From NCBI GenBank assembly GCA_021845805.1, contig JAJZVD010000002.1, positions 62,001 to 126,000 on the forward strand: a stretch of DNA of 64,000 nt. The letters run 5' to 3'. Shown here piece after piece: positions 2,287-63,940 of the stretch. Source of the stretch: Pseudomonadota bacterium. GTDB lineage: Bacteria; Pseudomonadota; Alphaproteobacteria; Rhodobacterales; Rhodobacteraceae. Numbering within the stretch: position 1 is the stretch's first letter; each line of letters opens with the position of its first letter. The notes beneath the pieces were generated by a model. That model worked only from the letters and a program-made list of their open reading frames with translations, did not search any database and was not told where the DNA came from. A program made the translations under genes and the position numbers.

Positions 2287-3801
2287 ATGAATGTTCTTGT
2301 CTGGTTCAAGCGCGATCTGCGGGTGGCAGACCATCCGGCCCTGACGCTGGCCGCCGGGCTGGGGCCGGTGCTGCCTGTCTATATCGTCGAGCCCGATCTC
2401 TGGCGGCAGGCCGATGCCTCGGGGCGGCAGTGGGCCTTCATCGGGGAAAGCCTTGTGGAACTGCGCGACGCGCTTGGCGCCCTTGGCGCGCCGCTGGTTG
2501 TGCGTGTGGGCGAGGCGGTCGAGGTGCTGGACAAGCTCTGCCGCCTGCATGGGATCGGCCACATCGTCTCGCATGAGGAAACGGGCACGCTCTGGACGTT
2601 CGCGCGCGACCGGGCGGTGGCGGACTGGGCGCGGCGGTCCGGGGTGGCCTGGACCGAGGTGCCGCAGCAGGGGGTGGTGCGTCGTCTGGCCGCCCGCAGC
2701 GACTGGGGCGCGCGGCGCGATGCCTTCCTGGCCGCCGGGCCGCTGCCGGTGCCCGCGGGCCTGACGCCGGTGCCGGGGGTAGAGCCGGGGGCGATCCCGT
2801 CGGCCCGGGCGCTGAAGCTCGCCGAGGATCGCTGCCCGCATCGGCAGGCGGGGGGGCGGGCCCAGGGGCTTGTGCTGACCGAATCGTTCCTGCGGGTCCG
2901 GGGGCAGCCCTACCGGGCGGCGATGTCCTCGCCGGTCAGTGGCGAACGCGCCTGTTCGCGGCTGTCGCCGCATCTGGCCTGGGGCACGCTGTCGGGGCGC
3001 GAGGTGGCGGCGGCGCTGGCCCTGCGGATGGCGGACCGGCCAGGTGCGGGCTGGTCGGGCAGCCTTGCGTCGTTCCGCTCGCGGCTGGCCTGGCGCGACC
3101 ATTTCATCCAGAAGCTGGAAACCCGGCCCGATCTGGAGGTGGCCTGCCTGCATCCGGCCTACGAGGGTCTGCGCCCGCGCGAGACCGACCGCGCGCGGCT
3201 TTCGGCCTGGGAGGCGGGGCAGACCGGCATCCCCTTCGTCGATGCCTGCCTGCGCTATCTGCGGGCCACCGGCTGGCTGAATTTCCGCATGCGCAGCATG
3301 GTGGTTTCGGTTGCGGCGCAGCATCTGTGGCTGGACTGGCGCGCGCTGGGCGCCCCGCTGGCGCGGATGTTCACCGATTACGAACCCGGCATCCACTGGC
3401 CGCAACTGCAGATGCAGGCGGGCACCACCGGGATGAACACGATCCGCATCTACAACCCGGTGAAACAGGGGCAGGAGCAGGACCCGACCGGCGCCTTTAC
3501 CCGCCGCTGGGTGCCCGAACTGGCCGAGGTGCCCGACACCTTCCTGCAGGAGCCCTGGCGCTGGAGCGGGGCGGCGGGGCTTCTGGGGCGCCGCTACCCC
3601 GAGCCGCTTGTGGACCTGGCCGCCGCCGCGCGTGCCGCGCGTGAGGCGGTCTATGCGGTGCGCAAGACGCCCGGCTTTCGCGACGAGGTGCCGCGGCTGG
3701 TGGCGGCGCTGGCCTCCGGACAAGGCAGGACGGGGCAGGGCGCGCGTGGCCGCGGCCGACGGGCGAAGCCGGTGCCGGGGCAGTTGAGCCTGGGGCTGTA
3801 G
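2287..3801 (+). CDS. phrB: Deoxyribodipyrimidine photolyase / cryptochrome family
   Basis: The predicted product is a 504-residue flavoprotein that uses blue light to split cyclobutane pyrimidine dimers. The N-terminal Rossmann-type antenna domain begins MNVLVWFKRDLRVADHPA, and the C-terminal FAD-binding helical domain contains TGIPFVDACLRYLRATGW near residues 310-328 and the WPQLQMQAGTTGMNT region. The internal ATG at 2287 is chosen over the track start at 2161 because the family N-terminus begins exactly there and the extra 42 residues run back into pepN. The tail after the FAD domain is short, basic and Gly/Arg-rich. A conserved 3' hairpin element follows the stop, then the small DUF2256 gene. 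Photolyase rather than signalling cryptochrome is inferred, not proven. Confidence 0.93.
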   Translation: MNVLVWFKRDLRVADHPALTLAAGLGPVLPVYIVEPDLWRQADASGRQWAFIGESLVELRDALGALGAPLVVRVGEAVEVLDKLCRLHGIGHIVSHEETGTLWTFARDRAVADWARRSGVAWTEVPQQGVVRRLAARSDWGARRDAFLAAGPLPVPAGLTPVPGVEPGAIPSARALKLAEDRCPHRQAGGRAQGLVLTESFLRVRGQPYRAAMSSPVSGERACSRLSPHLAWGTLSGREVAAALALRMADRPGAGWSGSLASFRSRLAWRDHFIQKLETRPDLEVACLHPAYEGLRPRETDRARLSAWEAGQTGIPFVDACLRYLRATGWLNFRMRSMVVSVAAQHLWLDWRALGAPLARMFTDYEPGIHWPQLQMQAGTTGMNTIRIYNPVKQGQEQDPTGAFTRRWVPELAEVPDTFLQEPWRWSGAAGLLGRRYPEPLVDLAAAARAAREAVYAVRKTPGFRDEVPRLVAALASGQGRTGQGARGRGRRAKPVPGQLSLGL

Positions 3802-44372: not shown

Positions 44373-46055
44373 ATGTGCGCCAAAGCTAGCATGGAAGAAT
44401 TCGAGGCCCTCCTGAAGGAGAGCCTGGAGATCGACACCCCGCAAGAGGGTTCGGTCGTCAAGGGCAAGGTCATCGCCATCGAGGCGGGCCAGGCCATCAT
44501 CGACGTCGGCTACAAGATGGAAGGCCGCGTCGACCTGAAGGAATTTGCCGGACCCGGCGAACAGCCGAACATCAAGGTCGGCGATGAGGTCGAGGTTTAC
44601 CTGGACCGCGTCGAGAACGTCCGGGGCGAAGCCGTCATCAGCCGCGACAAGGCCCGCCGCGAGGAAGCCTGGGACCGTCTGGAAAAGGCCTACGCCAGCG
44701 AGACCCGCGTCGAAGGCGCGATCTTCGGCCGCGTCAAGGGCGGCTTCACGGTCGACCTGGGCGGCGCCGTGGCCTTCCTGCCCGGCAGCCAGGTTGACGT
44801 GCGCCCGGTGCGCGATGCCGGCCCGCTGATGGGCATGAAGCAGCCCTTCCAGATCCTGAAGATGGACCGCCGCCGCGGCAACATCGTGGTGTCGCGCCGC
44901 GCAATCCTGGAAGAGTCGCGTGCCGAACAGCGCGCCGAAGTCATCGGCAGCCTGAGCGAAGGCCAGGTGGTTGACGGCGTGGTCAAGAACATCACCGAAT
45001 ACGGTGCGTTCGTTGACCTCGGCGGCGTCGACGGCCTGCTGCACGTCACCGACATGGCCTGGCGCCGCGTGAACCACCCGTCGGAAATCCTGTCGATCGG
45101 CGAGACCGTCAAGGTTCAGGTCATCAAGATCAACAAGGAAACCCACCGCATCAGCCTGGGCATGAAGCAGCTTCTGGCGGATCCGTGGGATGCCGTGGAA
45201 CGCAATTTCCCGATCGGCTCGGTCCACAAGGGCCGCGTGACCAACATCACCGACTACGGCGCCTTCGTGGAGCTGGAGCCGGGTGTGGAAGGTCTTGTCC
45301 ACGTCTCGGAAATGTCCTGGACCAAGAAGAACGTCCACCCGGGCAAGATCGTGTCGACCTCGCAAGAGGTGGATGTGATGGTTCTGGAAATCGACAGCGC
45401 CAAGCGCCGCGTGTCGCTGGGCCTGAAGCAGACCATGCGCAACCCGTGGGAAGTCTTCGCCGAAACCCACCCCGTTGGCTCGGCCATCGAGGGCGAGGTG
45501 AAGAACATCACCGAGTTCGGTCTGTTCGTGGGTCTCGACAACGACATCGACGGCATGGTGCACCTGTCGGACCTGAGCTGGGACCAGCGCGGGGAAGAGG
45601 CCATCCAGAACTACCGCAAGGGCGACACGGTCAAGGCCGTCGTCACCGAAGTGGACACCGACAAGGAGCGTATCTCGCTCTCGATCAAGGCGCTGGGCGA
45701 CGACACCTTCACGGATGCCGTTGACGGCGTGAAGCGCGGCTCGGTCATCACCGTGACGGTGACGGCGATCGAGGATGGCGGGATCGAGGTGGAATACAAC
45801 GGCGCCAAGTCGTTCATCCGCCGCTCGGACCTGTCGCGCGACCGCTCGGAACAGCGCCCCGAGCGCTTCCAGGTGGGCGACCACGTCGATGCGCGCGTGA
45901 CCAACATCGACCCCAAGACCCGCCGTCTGGGTCTGTCGATCAAGGCGCGCGAAATCGCGGAAGAGAAGGAAGCCGTGGAACAGTACGGCTCGTCCGACTC
46001 GGGCGCGTCGCTGGGCGACATCCTTGGCGCGGCACTCAAGGGCGACCGCAACTGA
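44373..46055 (+). CDS. rpsA: 30S ribosomal protein S1
   Basis: The 560-residue protein consists of about six S1/OB-fold repeats, for example EGSVVKGKVIAIEAGQAIID, EGQVVDGVVKNITEYGAFVDLGG, VHKGRVTNITDYGAFVELEPG and AIEGEVKNITEFGLFVGLDN. S1 brings mRNA to the 30S subunit during initiation. AAAGGAAA lies upstream of the start MCAKASMEEFEALL; the Cys at position 2 is a small deviation from the MAKASMEEF form I would expect. Codon use is typical of a highly expressed gene. A clear terminator follows. Confidence 0.97.
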   Translation: MCAKASMEEFEALLKESLEIDTPQEGSVVKGKVIAIEAGQAIIDVGYKMEGRVDLKEFAGPGEQPNIKVGDEVEVYLDRVENVRGEAVISRDKARREEAWDRLEKAYASETRVEGAIFGRVKGGFTVDLGGAVAFLPGSQVDVRPVRDAGPLMGMKQPFQILKMDRRRGNIVVSRRAILEESRAEQRAEVIGSLSEGQVVDGVVKNITEYGAFVDLGGVDGLLHVTDMAWRRVNHPSEILSIGETVKVQVIKINKETHRISLGMKQLLADPWDAVERNFPIGSVHKGRVTNITDYGAFVELEPGVEGLVHVSEMSWTKKNVHPGKIVSTSQEVDVMVLEIDSAKRRVSLGLKQTMRNPWEVFAETHPVGSAIEGEVKNITEFGLFVGLDNDIDGMVHLSDLSWDQRGEEAIQNYRKGDTVKAVVTEVDTDKERISLSIKALGDDTFTDAVDGVKRGSVITVTVTAIEDGGIEVEYNGAKSFIRRSDLSRDRSEQRPERFQVGDHVDARVTNIDPKTRRLGLSIKAREIAEEKEAVEQYGSSDSGASLGDILGAALKGDRN

Positions 46056-56339: not shown

Positions 56340-56972
56340 TCAGATGACCCCGATGCCGCGCAGGATCAGCGTCTTGACGCTGTCCTTCGCGTCCTTCCAT
56401 TGCCGGTCGGACAGCGGCTTGCCACCGTTCAGCGTCTCGATCTGATGGCCGAAGTCGGCGTAATGCTGGGTCGTGGCCCAGAGCATGTACAGCAGGTGGC
56501 GCGGATCGACACGGGCCATCCGCCCTTCGTCGATCCAGCGCTGGATGACCCGGGCGCGCCCCTCGGTCCAGTCGCGCAGCGTGGTTTCCAGATAGTCCTG
56601 GATCACCGGCGCGCCGTGCATCACCTCGCTGGCCCAGACCTTCGATCCATGCGGATGTCGCCGCGAGATTTCCATCTTGGCGTCGATATAGGCCCCGATC
56701 CCCTCGGCGGGGCCTGCGGCCTCGTCCATGCTGCCTGCGGCATGCAGCCAGATCTCGAAGATGTTGCGCACGACCTGCCGGTAAAGGTCTTCCTTGGTTG
56801 CGAAATAATAGTGCAGGTTCGCCTTGGGCAGCCCGGCCATGTCGGCGATCAGCTGCATGGTGGCGCCGCCAAAGCCGGCCTCGGCAAAGACTTTTTCCGC
56901 TGCCTGCAAAATCAGCGCCTCGCGCTCGCGCCGGATGTCGGTGCGACGGAGCGGACGTTCGGCTGCTGTCAT
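56340..56972 (-). CDS. rutR: TetR-family regulator, RutR type
   Basis: The 210-residue repressor has a TetR HTH (ATMQLIADMAGLPKANLHYYFATKEDLY) and a C-terminal domain like RutR (SKVWASEVMHGAPVIQDYLETTLRDW). RutR senses uracil or thymine and controls pyrimidine catabolism. This assignment is supported by two RutR-type operators in the divergent region and by the pyrimidine-degradation genes next to it. The symbol is by analogy. Confidence 0.88.
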   Translation of the reverse strand: MTAAERPLRRTDIRREREALILQAAEKVFAEAGFGGATMQLIADMAGLPKANLHYYFATKEDLYRQVVRNIFEIWLHAAGSMDEAAGPAEGIGAYIDAKMEISRRHPHGSKVWASEVMHGAPVIQDYLETTLRDWTEGRARVIQRWIDEGRMARVDPRHLLYMLWATTQHYADFGHQIETLNGGKPLSDRQWKDAKDSVKTLILRGIGVI

Positions 56973-56994: not shown

Positions 56995-57010
56995 TTGACC
57001 GGATGGTCAA
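56995..57010. promoter_or_regulatory. RutR-type operator 1
   Basis: TTGACC-GGAT-GGTCAA is an inverted repeat that matches the E. coli RutR consensus TTGACCANNTGGTCAA at all but one position. It lies 23 bases upstream of the regulator start and would repress it and the divergent hydrolase gene. Confidence 0.8.
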
Positions 57011-57026
57011 GCTGTGGTGCGCTTCA

Positions 57027-57044
57027 CCTGACCATATGGTCAGG
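57027..57044. promoter_or_regulatory. RutR-type operator 2
   Basis: CCTGACCATATGGTCAGG is a perfect 18-base palindrome whose core TGACCANNTGGTCA matches the RutR consensus completely. Its centre is 33 bp from that of operator 1, about three helical turns, so both dimers could bind on one DNA face. Confidence 0.85.
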
Positions 57045-57109: not shown

Positions 57110-58360
57110 ATGACCGTGCCCGGCGCCAATCTGCGCATCAATGGCGAACGGCTGTGGGACAGCCTGATGGAGATGGCCAGGATCGGCCCCGGCGTGGCGG
57201 GCGGCAACAACCGCCAGACGCTGACCGATGCCGATGCCGCGGGGCGCAGCCTGTTCAAGTCGTGGTGCGAGGCCGCGGGCTGCACCATGGGTCTGGACCG
57301 CATGGGCAACATGTTCGCCCGCCGCGACGGGACCGACCCCGACGCGCTGCCCGTCTACATCGGCAGCCACCTGGATACCCAGCCCACGGGCGGCAAGTAC
57401 GACGGCGTGCTGGGCGTGCTGGGCGGGCTCGAGGTGATCCGGACGATGAACGACCTTGGGCTGCGCACGAAACACCCGGTGGTGGTCACGAACTGGACCA
57501 ATGAAGAAGGCACCCGCTTTGCCCCGGCGATGCTGGCCTCGGGCGTCTTCGCGGGCATCCACGGGCTCGACTGGGCCTATGGACGTGCCGATGCCGAGGG
57601 CAAGCGGTTCGGCGACGAGCTGAAGCGGATCGGCTGGGTGGGCGCGGAAGAGGTCGGCGCCCGCAAGATGCATGCGATGTTCGAACTGCACATCGAACAG
57701 GGGCCGATCCTCGAGGCCGAGGGCCGCGACATCGGGGTGGTCACCCACGGGCAGGGGCTGTGGTGGCTGCAGATCACCCTGACCGGCAAGGACGCGCATA
57801 CCGGATCGACGCCCATGCACATGCGGGTGAACGCGGGCCTGGGCATGGCGCGGGTGATCGAGCGGGTCCACCAGATCGCCATGAGCCACCAGCCGAACGC
57901 GGTGGGCGCGGTGGGGCAGGCGAATGTCTACCCGAACTCGCGCAACGTGATCCCGGGGCGCGCGGTCTTTACCGTCGACATCCGCAGCCCCGAGCAGGCC
58001 AAGCTGGACGCGATGCGGGCCGAGGTGGAGCGTGCGGCGCATGCGGTGGCGGCCGAACTGGGGCTGGGCTGCGAGATCGAGGCTGTGGGGCATTTCGACC
58101 CGGTCACCTTTGACCCGGGCCTCGTGAAGGTGGTGCGCGGCGCCGCAGAGCGGCTGGGGTATTCGCACATGGATATCGTGTCGGGTGCGGGCCACGATGC
58201 CTGCTGGATCAACCGCGTGGCGCCGACGGTGATGATCATGTGCCCCTGCGTGGACGGGCTGTCGCATAACGAGGCCGAGGAGATTTCGCCCCAATGGGCG
58301 GCGGCCGGGACGGACGTCCTGTTCCACGCGGTGGTGGAGACGGCGGGGGTGGTTTCCTGA
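57110..58360 (+). CDS. pydC: Zinc-dependent beta-ureidopropionase / N-carbamoyl-amino acid hydrolase
   Basis: The 416-residue M20-type amidohydrolase cleaves N-carbamoyl-beta-alanine (or N-carbamoyl amino acids), the last step of reductive pyrimidine breakdown. Metal-binding segments are YIGSHLDTQPTGGKYDGVLG, VTNWTNEEGTRF, FELHIEQGPIL and SGAGHDACW. The start at 57110 follows GGGAGA. It is the first gene of the RutR-controlled set. The symbol follows pyrimidine usage; a hydantoinase-type substrate range is possible. Confidence 0.9.
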   Translation: MTVPGANLRINGERLWDSLMEMARIGPGVAGGNNRQTLTDADAAGRSLFKSWCEAAGCTMGLDRMGNMFARRDGTDPDALPVYIGSHLDTQPTGGKYDGVLGVLGGLEVIRTMNDLGLRTKHPVVVTNWTNEEGTRFAPAMLASGVFAGIHGLDWAYGRADAEGKRFGDELKRIGWVGAEEVGARKMHAMFELHIEQGPILEAEGRDIGVVTHGQGLWWLQITLTGKDAHTGSTPMHMRVNAGLGMARVIERVHQIAMSHQPNAVGAVGQANVYPNSRNVIPGRAVFTVDIRSPEQAKLDAMRAEVERAAHAVAAELGLGCEIEAVGHFDPVTFDPGLVKVVRGAAERLGYSHMDIVSGAGHDACWINRVAPTVMIMCPCVDGLSHNEAEEISPQWAAAGTDVLFHAVVETAGVVS

Positions 58361-58443: not shown

Positions 58444-59895
58444 ATGAGCACGGTCATCAAGGGTGGCACCATCGTCACGGCGGACCTGACCTACACGGCC
58501 GACGTGAAGATCGAGGGCGGGCGGATCGTCGAGATCGGCGCGGGGCTGAAGGGCGACACGGTGCTGGATGCCACCGGCTGCTATGTGATGCCGGGCGGGA
58601 TCGATCCGCATACGCATCTCGAGATGCCGTTCATGGGCACCTATTCCAGCGACGATTTCGATTCCGGCACCCGCGCCGCCTTGGCGGGCGGTACCACGAT
58701 GGTGGTGGATTTCGCGTTGCCCGCGCCCGGGCAGGGGCTGCTGGATGCGCTGTCCATGTGGCACAACAAGGCGGGCCGGGCGCATTGCGACTATTCCTAC
58801 CACATGGCGATCACCTGGTGGGGGGAACAGGTCTTCACCGAGATGAAGGCCGTGGTGGATCAGGGCATCAACACCTTCAAGCATTTCATGGCCTACAAGG
58901 GCAGCCTGATGGTGAACGACGACGAGCTGTTCGCCAGTTTCCGCCGCTGCGCCGAACTGGGGGCGCTGCCGCTGGTGCATGCCGAGAACGGCGATGTGGT
59001 GGCGGAACTGTCGGCGCGGCTTCTGGCCGAGGGGAACACCGGGCCCGAGGCCCATGCCTACAGCCGGCCTCCGCAGGTGGAAGGCGAGGCCACGAACCGT
59101 GCGATCATGATCGCCGACATGGCGGGCGTGCCGCTTTACGTCGTGCACACCTCGTGCGAGGAGGCGCATGAGGCGATCCGGCGGGCGCGGGCGGCGGGCA
59201 AGCGGGTCTGGGGCGAGCCGCTGATCCAGCACCTGACGCTGGACGACAGCGAATACATGAACAAGGATTGGGACCATGCCGCACGGCGCGTGATGAGCCC
59301 GCCGTTCCGCGACAAGCGGCATCAGGACAGCCTGTGGGCGGGGCTCGCCTCGGGCAGTCTGTCGGTGGTGGCGACCGACCATTGCGCCTTCACCACCGCG
59401 CAGAAGCGCACCGGGATGGGCAACTTCACCCGGATCCCGAACGGGACCGGCGGGCTCGAGGACCGGATGCCGATGCTTTGGACCCATGGGGTGAACACCG
59501 GGCGGCTGACCCCGAACGAATTCGTGGCCGTCACCTCGACCAATATCGCGAAGATCCTGAACGTTTACCCGCGCAAGGGGGCGGTGCTGGTCGGCGCCGA
59601 TGCCGATCTGGTCGTGTGGGATCCGAAGGCCAGCAAGACGATCAGCGCCAAGAGCCAGCAATCCGCCATCGATTACAACGTGTTCGAGGGGAAGGTTGTT
59701 ACCGGTCTGCCGCGCTTCACGCTGAGCCGGGGGCATGTCGCGGTGACCGAAGGCCGCATGAGTTCGCGCGAGGGGCATGGCGAATTCGTCAAGCGCGCGC
59801 CGAACGGGTCGGTGAACCGCGCGCTTTCGACCTGGAAGGAACTGACGGCGCCGCGCCCGGTGGTGCGGGCGGGCATTCCGGTCAGCGGGGTCTAG
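58444..59895 (+). CDS. hydA: Dihydropyrimidinase (hydantoinase)
   Basis: The 483-residue cyclic amidohydrolase opens dihydrouracil/dihydrothymine rings. The HxH motif lies in GGIDPHTHLEMPF (near residues 57-59) and the carbamylated lysine in FKHFMAYKGSLMVNDDEL (near 150). The ATG at 58444 is the family start; the track's start at 58294 overlaps pydC. It acts just before PydC. The first enzyme of the pathway (dihydropyrimidine dehydrogenase, PreAT/PydA) is not in the window and may lie past its right end. Confidence 0.95.
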   Translation: MSTVIKGGTIVTADLTYTADVKIEGGRIVEIGAGLKGDTVLDATGCYVMPGGIDPHTHLEMPFMGTYSSDDFDSGTRAALAGGTTMVVDFALPAPGQGLLDALSMWHNKAGRAHCDYSYHMAITWWGEQVFTEMKAVVDQGINTFKHFMAYKGSLMVNDDELFASFRRCAELGALPLVHAENGDVVAELSARLLAEGNTGPEAHAYSRPPQVEGEATNRAIMIADMAGVPLYVVHTSCEEAHEAIRRARAAGKRVWGEPLIQHLTLDDSEYMNKDWDHAARRVMSPPFRDKRHQDSLWAGLASGSLSVVATDHCAFTTAQKRTGMGNFTRIPNGTGGLEDRMPMLWTHGVNTGRLTPNEFVAVTSTNIAKILNVYPRKGAVLVGADADLVVWDPKASKTISAKSQQSAIDYNVFEGKVVTGLPRFTLSRGHVAVTEGRMSSREGHGEFVKRAPNGSVNRALSTWKELTAPRPVVRAGIPVSGV

Positions 59896-60287: not shown

Positions 60288-60317
60288 GGGGAAGGGCCTC
60301 CGGTGGGTGATGGACGG

Positions 60318-61136
60318 ATGGCAGCGATGATAGCGCGGAACGCGGGCGGCGCACAGGTGGCACCGGTGGTCGAGGCACGGGGCGTGGGGTTGACGTTCCA
60401 GACCGCCGACGGGCCGGTGCATGCCCTGAAGGATGTGAACCTGACCATCGCCAAGGGCGATTTCGTCAGCTTCATCGGGCCCTCGGGCTGTGGCAAGACC
60501 ACCTTCCTGCGCGCCATCGCGGCGCTGGAGGCGCCGACCGAGGGCAGCCTGACGGTGAACGGGATGACACCCGACGCCGCACGGCGGGCGCGGGCCTATG
60601 GCTATGTGTTCCAGGCGGCCGGGCTTTACCCCTGGCGCACGATTGCGGGAAATGTGAAGCTTCCGCTGGAGATCATGGGGTTTTCCAGGGCGGAACAGGA
60701 CGCACGTGTTGCAAAAGTGCTGGAGCTGGTCGAGCTGACGGGCTTTGGCAAGAAGTTTCCCTGGCAGTTGTCGGGGGGCATGCAGCAGCGCGCCAGCATC
60801 GCGCGGGCGCTGGCCTTCGATGCCGACATCCTGCTGATGGACGAACCCTTCGGCGCGCTGGACGAGATTGTCCGCGACCGGCTGAACGAAGAGCTTCTGA
60901 AGCTTTGGAACAACACCGGAAAAACCATTGGATTCGTGACACATTCCATCCCCGAGGCGGTGTATCTGTCGACCAAGATCGTGGTGATGAGCCCGCGTCC
61001 GGGGCGGATCACCGACGTGATCGAAAGCCCGCTGCCGCGCGTGCGGCCGCTGGAGATCCGCGATACGCCCGAATTCATGGCGATTGCCCACCGGGTGCGC
61101 GAAGGCTTGCGGGCGGGGCACAGCTATGACGTGTAA
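60318..61136 (+). CDS. ABC transporter ATPase, pyrimidine/nitrate-taurine type
   Basis: The 272-residue ATPase of the SsuB/TauB/NrtD class shows Walker A FIGPSGCGKTTFLR, signature QLSGGMQQRASIARALAF and Walker B ILLMDEPFGALDE. It drives the two permeases and receptor that follow, probably importing a pyrimidine. Possible starts are GTG 60303, ATG 60318 and ATG 60327; 60318 is taken because a purine-rich GGTGGGTGATGGACGG precedes it, but the choice is uncertain. Confidence 0.88.
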   Translation: MAAMIARNAGGAQVAPVVEARGVGLTFQTADGPVHALKDVNLTIAKGDFVSFIGPSGCGKTTFLRAIAALEAPTEGSLTVNGMTPDAARRARAYGYVFQAAGLYPWRTIAGNVKLPLEIMGFSRAEQDARVAKVLELVELTGFGKKFPWQLSGGMQQRASIARALAFDADILLMDEPFGALDEIVRDRLNEELLKLWNNTGKTIGFVTHSIPEAVYLSTKIVVMSPRPGRITDVIESPLPRVRPLEIRDTPEFMAIAHRVREGLRAGHSYDV

Positions 61137-61196
61137 GGGATTGTCGAACTTTGTGAAATCGTGCCGCCAAGCCATCGCGGCCGCAGGGAGGCGCGG

Positions 61197-62060
61197 ATGA
61201 AATCGGCGGGCCCCGTGCTGACGGTGCTGATCGCGATCCTGGCGCTGTGGTACGCGGGCGCGGTCTGGATGAATGCGCAATGGGTCCGCGACCAGGCCGA
61301 GCGCGCCGGGCAGACGGTTACCTGGGAACAGATCGTGCCGCAAACGATGAACCAGAGCCGCCCGGTGCTGCCTGCGCCGCATCAGGTGGCGGTGGAACTG
61401 TGGAAGGCGGTGGTGGTGACGCCGCCCACCTCGAAGCGGAGCCTGATCTACCACGCCTGGGTCACGCTGAGCGCGACGCTGCTGGGCTTTGCCATCGGCA
61501 CCGGGGCCGGCATTCTCCTGGCGGCGGGGATCGTGCACAACCGGGCGATGGACATGAGCGTGATGCCCTGGGCCATCGCCAGCCAGACGATCCCGATCCT
61601 GGCGGTGGCGCCGATGATCATCGTGGTGCTGAATTCCATCGGCATCACCGGGCTGGTGCCCAAGGCGATCATCTCGGCCTATCTCAGTTTCTTCCCGGTG
61701 GTGGTGGGCATGGTGAAGGGCTTCCGCAGCCCCGACGCGATGCAGCTTGACCTGCTGAAGACCTATAGCGCCAGCCGGATGCAGGCGTTCTGGAAGCTGC
61801 GGCTGCCCTCGTCGATGCCCTATCTCTTCGCCTCGCTGAAGGTGGGGGCGGCGGCGGCGCTGGTCGGCACCATCGTGGGCGAACTGCCCACCGGGGCGGT
61901 GGCGGGGCTTGGCGCGCGGCTTCTGTCGGGCAGCTACTACGGGCAGACGGTGCAGATCTGGGCCGCGCTGTTCGTTGCGGCGGCGCTGGCGGCGGGGCTG
62001 GTCATCGTGATCGGCATGGTGCAGCGCGTGACGCTTCGGCGGATGGGGATGCTGCGATGA
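61197..62060 (+). CDS. ABC transporter permease (pyrimidine importer)
   Basis: The 287-residue permease has about six membrane segments and the BPD-type loop DLLKTYSASRMQAFWKLRLPSSMPYLFASLK. An amino-terminal periplasmic segment of about 50 residues lies after the first helix. The start at 61197 has AGGGAGG 5 bases upstream. It overlaps the second permease by 4 bases (ATGA). Confidence 0.9.
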   Translation: MKSAGPVLTVLIAILALWYAGAVWMNAQWVRDQAERAGQTVTWEQIVPQTMNQSRPVLPAPHQVAVELWKAVVVTPPTSKRSLIYHAWVTLSATLLGFAIGTGAGILLAAGIVHNRAMDMSVMPWAIASQTIPILAVAPMIIVVLNSIGITGLVPKAIISAYLSFFPVVVGMVKGFRSPDAMQLDLLKTYSASRMQAFWKLRLPSSMPYLFASLKVGAAAALVGTIVGELPTGAVAGLGARLLSGSYYGQTVQIWAALFVAAALAAGLVIVIGMVQRVTLRRMGMLR

Positions 62061-62902
62061 CCTGGCTGATCCTGGCGGCTCTGGTCTGGGCGGGGGGCTG
62101 GGGCCTGAACGTGGCGCTGTCGCGTTCGGCGCTGGCCGCGACGCGGGGCGGGCGGCTTCTGGTGCCCGCGATCTTCGGCGCCGTGATCCTGTTCGTCTGG
62201 GAGGCGGTGGTGCGCGGGCTGAACGTGCCCGGCGTGATCCTGCCGCCCCCCACCGCCATCGCGGAACGGCTGGTCGAGAACGTCCCGCTGTTCTGGCAGG
62301 ATTTCCAGCAGACGTTCCTGAAGGGCGCGCTGGGCGGCTATGCCATCGGGTGTTCTGCGGCGATCCTGACCGCGATCGCCATCGACCGCTCGCCCTTCCT
62401 GCAACGTGGCCTTCTGCCGGTGGGCAACTTCGTGGCCGCCCTGCCCATCGTGGGGATCGCGCCGATCCTGGTGATGTGGTTCGGCTTCGACTGGCAGTCG
62501 AAGGCGGCGGTAGTGGTGGTGATGGTCTATTTCCCCGTGCTGGTGAACACGGTGGCGGGGCTTGCCGCGGCGGATGCGATGCAGCGCGACCTGATGGCCA
62601 CCTGGAGCGCGTCTTACGGGCAAAGCCTGCTGAAGCTGCGGCTGCCCGCGGCGATGCCCTTCATCTTCAACGGCTTGAAGATCGCGACCACGCTCGCGCT
62701 GATCGGGGCGATCGTGGCAGAGTTTTTCGGATCGCCCATCAAGGGCATGGGCTTTCGCATCTCGACCGAGGTGGGCAAGCTGAGCCTCGACATGGTGTGG
62801 GCGGAAATCACGGTGGCGGCCCTTGCGGGGAGCGCTTTCTACGGGCTTGTCGCGGCGGTGGAGAAGGCGGTGACCTTCTGGCATCCGTCGCAACGGGGGT
62901 AA
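62057..62902 (+). CDS. Second ABC transporter permease (pyrimidine importer)
   Basis: The 281-residue permease belongs to the same family as the preceding one (loop DLMATWSASYGQSLLKLRLPAAMPFIFNGLK), so the importer is a heterodimer in the membrane. The two genes overlap by ATGA and the receptor gene follows after 42 bases. Confidence 0.9.
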   Translation: MTWLILAALVWAGGWGLNVALSRSALAATRGGRLLVPAIFGAVILFVWEAVVRGLNVPGVILPPPTAIAERLVENVPLFWQDFQQTFLKGALGGYAIGCSAAILTAIAIDRSPFLQRGLLPVGNFVAALPIVGIAPILVMWFGFDWQSKAAVVVVMVYFPVLVNTVAGLAAADAMQRDLMATWSASYGQSLLKLRLPAAMPFIFNGLKIATTLALIGAIVAEFFGSPIKGMGFRISTEVGKLSLDMVWAEITVAALAGSAFYGLVAAVEKAVTFWHPSQRG

Positions 62903-62944: not shown

Positions 62945-63940
62945 ATGATGAAGAAGGTGATCGCGGGCGCCCTGGGGGCCCTGCTGATGACGACGGCGGC
63001 CCATGCCGCCGACAAGGTGACGCTGCAGCTCAAATGGGTCACGCAGGCCCAGTTCATGGGCTACTACGTCGCCAAGGACAAAGGCTTCTACAAGGACGAA
63101 GGGCTTGACGTGACGATCAAGCCGGGCGGCCCCGACATCGCGCCGGAACAGGTGATCGCGGGCGGCGGCGCCGATGTGATCGTGGACTGGATGGCCGCCG
63201 CGCTGGCCGCCCGCGAACGGGGCCTGCCGCTGGTGAACATCGCCCAGCCGTTCAAGCACGGCGGGCTTGAACTGACCTGCCTGAAATCCTCGGGCATCTC
63301 GTCGCCCAAGGACTTCCCCGGCCATACGCTCGGCGTCTGGTTCTACGGCAACGAATATCCGTTCTACGCCTGGATGGCGAAGCTTGGCGTCAAGACCGAC
63401 GGCAGCGCCGGCGGGGTCAAGGTGCTCAAGCAGGCGTTCAACGTCGATCCGCTGCTGCAGAAGCAGGCCGACTGCATCTCGGTCATGACCTACAACGAAT
63501 ATGGCCAGGTGCTGGACGCCGGGATCAAGCCGGACCAGCTTGTGACCTTCAACTACCTGAAGGAAGGCGTGGGCATGATGGAGGACGGGCTGTACGTCCT
63601 GCAGAAGAGCCTCGACGACGCGGCGTTCAAGGAAAAGATGGTGAAGTTCGTGCGCGCCTCGATGAAGGGCTGGAAATATGCCGAAGCGCACCCGGATGAA
63701 GCCGCGCAGATCGTGATCGACAACGACGCCAGCGGCGCGCAGACGCTGGAGCATCAGAAGTACATGGCGGGCGAGGTCGCGAAGCTGACCCAGGGGTCGA
63801 ACGGGTCGCTGGACCCCGAGGACTACAAGGAAACCGTGGCGACGCTTCTGTCGGCGGTCTCGCCCGACAACCCGGCGATCACCAAGGACCCGGGTGCGGG
63901 TGCCTGGACGCATGCGATCACTGACGCGGCGCTGAAGTAG
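62945..63940 (+). CDS. ABC transporter substrate-binding protein, NMT1/THI5-like
   Basis: The 331-residue receptor has a signal peptide (VIAGALGALLMTTAAHAA) and the NMT1/THI5-like pattern VTLQLKWVTQAQFMGYYVAKDKGFYKDEGLDVTI. This family binds thiamine-pyrimidine and related pyrimidines, which matches the neighbouring dihydropyrimidinase and RutR-type control. Either tandem ATG may start it: GGAGG is 4 bases before the first (62945) and 7 before the second (62948). The ligand is inferred. Confidence 0.9.
   Translation: MMKKVIAGALGALLMTTAAHAADKVTLQLKWVTQAQFMGYYVAKDKGFYKDEGLDVTIKPGGPDIAPEQVIAGGGADVIVDWMAAALAARERGLPLVNIAQPFKHGGLELTCLKSSGISSPKDFPGHTLGVWFYGNEYPFYAWMAKLGVKTDGSAGGVKVLKQAFNVDPLLQKQADCISVMTYNEYGQVLDAGIKPDQLVTFNYLKEGVGMMEDGLYVLQKSLDDAAFKEKMVKFVRASMKGWKYAEAHPDEAAQIVIDNDASGAQTLEHQKYMAGEVAKLTQGSNGSLDPEDYKETVATLLSAVSPDNPAITKDPGAGAWTHAITDAALK

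Follow-up and report, generated by a model that had tools for sequence, protein, structure and literature searches.

The regulatory systems closest to the locus considered here are those of RutR in E. coli, with operators at rutA and carAB, and of PydR in P. putida, a RutR-like protein which, according to the title of Hidese et al. 2012 (via PMC7332683), is the repressor of the dehydrogenase gene in reductive pyrimidine breakdown. Predictions of RutR regulons that govern pyrimidine catabolism, outlined in PMC5343134 (RegPrecise), cover 68 genomes from 13 groups of Proteobacteria, the motif showing changes specific to the taxon. The regulator encoded in the window (the whole 64-kb stretch of DNA analyzed), called RutR1, shares with E. 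coli RutR the protein family, the uracil pocket, the DNA-contacting lysines, an operator of the TTGACCANNTGGTCAA type and the connection with pyrimidine catabolism. It differs from it in sequence (37% identity), in scoring below the equivalog cut-offs, in the recognition helix, in having a double operator, and in being linked to the reductive rather than the oxidative pathway. PydR, compared by description only, is likewise a RutR-like regulator of the reductive pathway, but the operon in the window lacks dehydrogenase genes, and includes an NMT1-type importer and two operators. RutR control of pyrimidine catabolism is the trait shared with the regulons outlined in PMC5343134. The preliminary description had claimed a different regulon under the same operator. 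Reductive genes and an importer do lie behind RutR-type sites, but PydR and the predicted regulons, as presented in these sources, make the locus an example of an arrangement already known. Control of reductive pyrimidine breakdown by RutR-like proteins has thus been reported before, and the basic mechanism is not new. Paired paralogues, a fixed double operator and a link to deoC were not found described in the limited literature covered; the RegPrecise tables may include them.

The regulator gene rutR1 (56340-56972, minus strand) encodes a TetR/RutR-family repressor of 210 aa with TetR_N and TetR_C_3 domains, and is divergent from pydC (57110-58360, plus strand), the gene for an N-carbamoyl-beta-alanine amidohydrolase of the M20 family (phmmer scores of 740.8 bits with 8apz, an N-carbamoyl-L-amino-acid hydrolase, and 731.7 bits with 8c46, an N-carbamoyl-beta-alanine amidohydrolase). 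On the plus strand follow pydB/hydA, encoding a dihydropyrimidinase (58444-59895; TIGR02033 597.5 bits, cut-off 393.25; 926 bits with the dihydropyrimidinase 3dc8), and the genes of an ABC importer, made up of an ATPase of the taurine/nitrate/sulfonate type (60303-61136), two BPD_transp_1 permeases (61161-62060 and 62057-62902) and an NMT1/THI5-type substrate-binding protein (62945-63940; PF09084), whose nearest solved relatives are 4nmy and the pyrimidine-binding 3ix1. The gene calls of the preliminary description, hydA/pydC and an NMT1-type importer behind the operators, hold, the enzymes being strongly matched. The window carries only steps 2-3 of the pathway and import, the dihydropyrimidine dehydrogenase of step 1 and the likely beta-alanine aminotransferase of step 4 being encoded on another contig, where they have their own boxes. 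A TMEM175-type potassium channel gene (PF06736; 55067-55636) adjoins the regulator; only a few close relatives have it in this place, and it marks a rearranged flank.

Two 16-bp inverted repeats, for which no strand is assigned, lie between rutR1 and pydC. Operator 1, on the rutR1 side (56995-57010), is TTGACCGGATGGTCAA, with a single change from TTGACCANNTGGTCAA; operator 2, on the pydC side (57028-57043), is CTGACCATATGGTCAG, with a perfect 14-bp core, TGACCATATGGTCA, and a change at each outer base. A RutR-type operator is present near the rutR1 gene twice, with one and with two mismatches, in forms kept in relatives, and the two sites first described, one with a perfect core and one with a single change, were both found in place. 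The operator centres, at 57002.5 and 57035.5, are 33 bp apart, a distance taken earlier to suggest side-by-side dimers; 33-34 bp slightly exceeds three helical turns, enough space for two dimers. In the 64-kb window TTGACCANNTGGTCAA is matched with up to three mismatches at 6 places vs. 0.8 expected, a number reached in 0 of 100 shuffles. The best of the four further places, at 44971 (two mismatches), lies within a coding frame.

A pydC promoter at 56995-57023 (plus strand) is predicted from the conserved block around both operators, with the -35 hexamer TTGACC (56995-57000) inside operator 1, a 17-bp spacer and a weak -10-like TGCGCT (57018-57023). Scanning with a promoter consensus gave no sigma-70 match, so the prediction depends on conservation.

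Conservation of the pair was monitored in 80 related loci taken from genome_contigs, in which the regulator is 78-100% identical to RutR1. Both operators are found in 78 loci, spaced by 34 (most), 33 or 32 bp; the counterpart of operator 1 is kept in 78/80, that of operator 2 in 80/80, mostly as TGACCRTATGGTCA. They form nearly invariant columns of a block of about 85 bp that is conserved, while the remaining intergenic region drifts. This conservation is the strongest sign against a chance origin of the pair, although the loci share kinship, and 78/80 does not equal 78 independent events. The same pair, at 33 bp, recurs in L193 and L202, which belong to a different family of the class, and in L186, a locus from the same family but more distantly related; one site remains in some relatives (L119 and L134, and also L040 and L041). 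The pyd genes and the importer are located downstream of the divergent promoter in nearly all longer loci. Exact TGACCRNNYGGTCA sequences, monitored in 142 loci (1.81 Mb), reside upstream of rutR, pydC or an omega-aminotransferase gene in 178 of 182 cases, about 0.4 matches being expected by simple base counting.

RutR1 carries the YcdC-like C-terminal domain TetR_C_3 (PF08362 175.8 bits, cut-off 25), and its best solved relatives are the E. coli RutR structures 3loc and 6z1b. It scores below both RutR equivalog cut-offs (TIGR03613, 206 vs. 368; NF011584, 166.3 vs. 230). The regulator had been called RutR-like, which is correct as to family and pocket, but not in the sense of a RutR equivalog; direct RutR orthology is rejected, as RutR1 misses the cut-offs and a second paralogue of the same genome matches better. 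All five residues contacting uracil in E. coli RutR (W77, Y97, W167, Q171 and Q179; PMC10891134) are kept in RutR1, along with the DNA-contacting K52 and K62. The pocket residues are identical in 87/87 RutR1, 117/117 RutR2 and 24/24 E. coli-type rows, and variable in more distant family members; K52 and K62 are invariant across the 87 RutR1 rows. The recognition helix differs from that of E. coli RutR by changes of S51 to P, T53 to A and L56 to H, so it is not certain that RutR1 has the same operator preference. In a tree of 98 proteins, whose bootstrap is not fully settled and whose finer branching is rough, RutR1 stands apart from E. coli RutR and RutR2 (100/97), in a supported group (100/98) with other Pseudomonadota regulators, one of which adjoins pydB-preT-preA (L224); P. 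putida PydR is not part of the tree. Reductive pathway genes accompany rutR1, namely pydC and pydB in the window; in most relatives the cluster also includes preT-preA. RutR1 is probably a PydR-type, diverged paralogue of the RutR family.

The second paralogue, RutR2, is encoded on another contig (C7:42408-42953 of the window genome, G000), between preT-preA, the dihydropyrimidine dehydrogenase genes, and an omega-aminotransferase gene. It shares with RutR1 the family, the pocket and the operator core, but is 51% identical to E. coli RutR, passes one RutR cut-off (NF011584, 236 vs. 230), and has a single site, TGACCATTTGGTCA at C7:43028, in the promoter region shared by rutR2 and the omega-aminotransferase gene. 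The two paralogues are clustered with the pyd genes in most relatives; some genomes of the genus have the cluster split (in G002 the parts share a contig and are separated by about 55 kb). Many family genomes have RutR2 alone with a single site, the same motif lying in the interval from rutR2 to pydC or to the aminotransferase gene. RutR2 promoters have at most one site, RutR1 loci mostly two; the motif profiles of the two paralogues are nearly identical, and their recognition helices consistently different. In many two-paralogue loci of the Tabrizicola type (L077-L142) the rutR2 promoter contains a degenerate box only (TTTGACCT..CGGT), as though the rutR2 operator were in decay.

A genome scan for further sites, proposed in the preliminary description, gave 7 exact matches to TGACCRNNYGGTCA in the 3.4-Mb genome vs. 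2 for the reversed control pattern. Of the six that were examined, three belong to pyd loci (C7:43028 and the two in the window) and one is upstream of deoC, which adds boxes at RutR2 and deoC to the pair; the two at C3:5120 and C65:42639 lie within coding frames and were set aside as sites. The deoC box, TTGACCATCCGGTCAG, is found upstream of deoC and an aldehyde dehydrogenase gene, and reads TGACCATCCGGTCA on the deoC strand (3617-3630 of locus L027; C67:7616-7629 of the genome). Sites with at most one mismatch occur in 12/30 deoC upstream regions from family genomes, the window genome included (L266-L295), base counting predicting about 0.003 per region.

Scored with a weight matrix for the TGACC form, 47/48 loci showed no site above background at preT. 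The notion that preT lies outside the regulon was overturned by a k-mer search, which found a conserved TTTACC variant. This box, TTTACCRNTTGATAAA (listed also as TTTACCGTTTGATAAA; 2668-2683 of locus L025, corresponding to C7:38667-38682), is present exactly once per genome in 41/61 family genomes, preA being present in 52/61, and its reversed control almost nowhere; in the window genome it is a single match even at two mismatches. The preT start lies 58-88 bp beyond it in 30 of the 31 places examined. TTTACCRNTTGATAAA resembles the RutR box with G changed to T in each half; the rutR2 promoter of certain relatives carries a symmetric form, TTTACCATTTGGTAAA, and mixed forms exist. The preT box is likely a variant of the RutR box and would be bound by RutR1 or RutR2, and its right half, TTGATA, may double as a -35 hexamer. 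A sigma-54 promoter at preT, matched in one distant locus only, was discarded. The boxes at preT and deoC are likely further sites. RutA was not found over cut-off in the genome (best score 48.5 bits vs. 498.3), and the oxidative Rut pathway is thus not seen in it.

Taken together, the two operators are very probably occupied by a RutR-related repressor. We put at roughly 0.8 the probability that they are the operators of the divergently encoded RutR1, serving pyrimidine-relieved repression of the promoter of pydC, pydB and the importer. When free pyrimidine is lacking, RutR1 dimers would sit side by side on both operators, shutting this promoter and probably the promoter of rutR1 too. The -35 region would be covered by operator 1, transcription would start within operator 2, and the two dimers would clamp the promoter. 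Uracil or thymine entering the kept pocket would release RutR1, and import, ring opening and carbamoyl-beta-alanine hydrolysis would be switched on. As preT-preA and the omega-aminotransferase gene carry the same general type of box, the pathway would respond as one unit. We infer binding, repression, effector, promoter geometry and the assignment of paralogues to sites from sequence comparisons.

RutR2 could be the main repressor at the pair, or both paralogues could compete there, a possibility we regard as real but doubtful. The same motif at the RutR2 promoter, the nearly identical motif profiles, the presence of RutR2 alone at equivalent loci in many family genomes and its closer relationship to E. 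coli RutR are in its favour, but the double operator tracks RutR1, RutR2 promoters having at most one site, and the recognition helices consistently differ. A chance origin of the palindromes may be discarded almost with certainty: short palindromes do arise by chance, but the shuffles, the conservation in 78/80 loci, the promoter placement of 178/182 TGACCRNNYGGTCA matches and the conserved block rule it out.

The mode of control and the effector may be questioned as well. Activation, too, can operate through two sites a fixed distance apart, and E. coli RutR indirectly activates carAB (PMC10891134), so that a pyrimidine-bound regulator might switch the operon on from the pair. This is quite unlikely, as the operators seem to lie over the -35 and start region, not upstream of it, and the RutR-type regulators of catabolic operons described so far are, to our knowledge, repressors. 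Slightly less remote, yet improbable, is that a dihydropyrimidine, an N-carbamoyl-beta-amino acid or a hydantoin acts as effector in place of uracil or thymine. The operon in the window encodes steps 2-3, and hydantoins are also substrates of pydB-type enzymes, but the five uracil-contacting residues are invariant.

Repression by RutR1 of the pydC promoter could be part of a division of labour, which is proposed tentatively and has less than an even chance of being correct. RutR1 would act at pydC, by way of the double operator with its rigid spacing; RutR2 would use the single boxes at the aminotransferase gene and deoC and the G-to-T variant TTTACCRNTTGATAAA at preT, whose asymmetric half would also be a -35 element, two paralogues with different recognition helices thus dividing one pathway. 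If this is true, the pyrimidine response extends to the breakdown of deoxyribose-phosphate (deoC). The data provide a map, open to testing, of the switching of pyrimidine use in Rhodobacteraceae and some other Alphaproteobacteria, by a sensor family that serves another pathway in E. coli. Paired paralogues and three operator forms make a case for studying how duplicated repressors share or split their targets.

In the two loci from a different family, L193 and L202, RutR1 is 77% identical to that of the window and has the same double operator, while several RutR1 proteins of the same family are only 51-63% identical, which hints at horizontal transfer of the rutR1 locus. A Rhodobacteraceae-type rutR1-pyd locus (86% identity) is also found in L089, a metagenome-assembled genome record titled Exiguobacterium profundum (CP059262.1), a label which is probably wrong.
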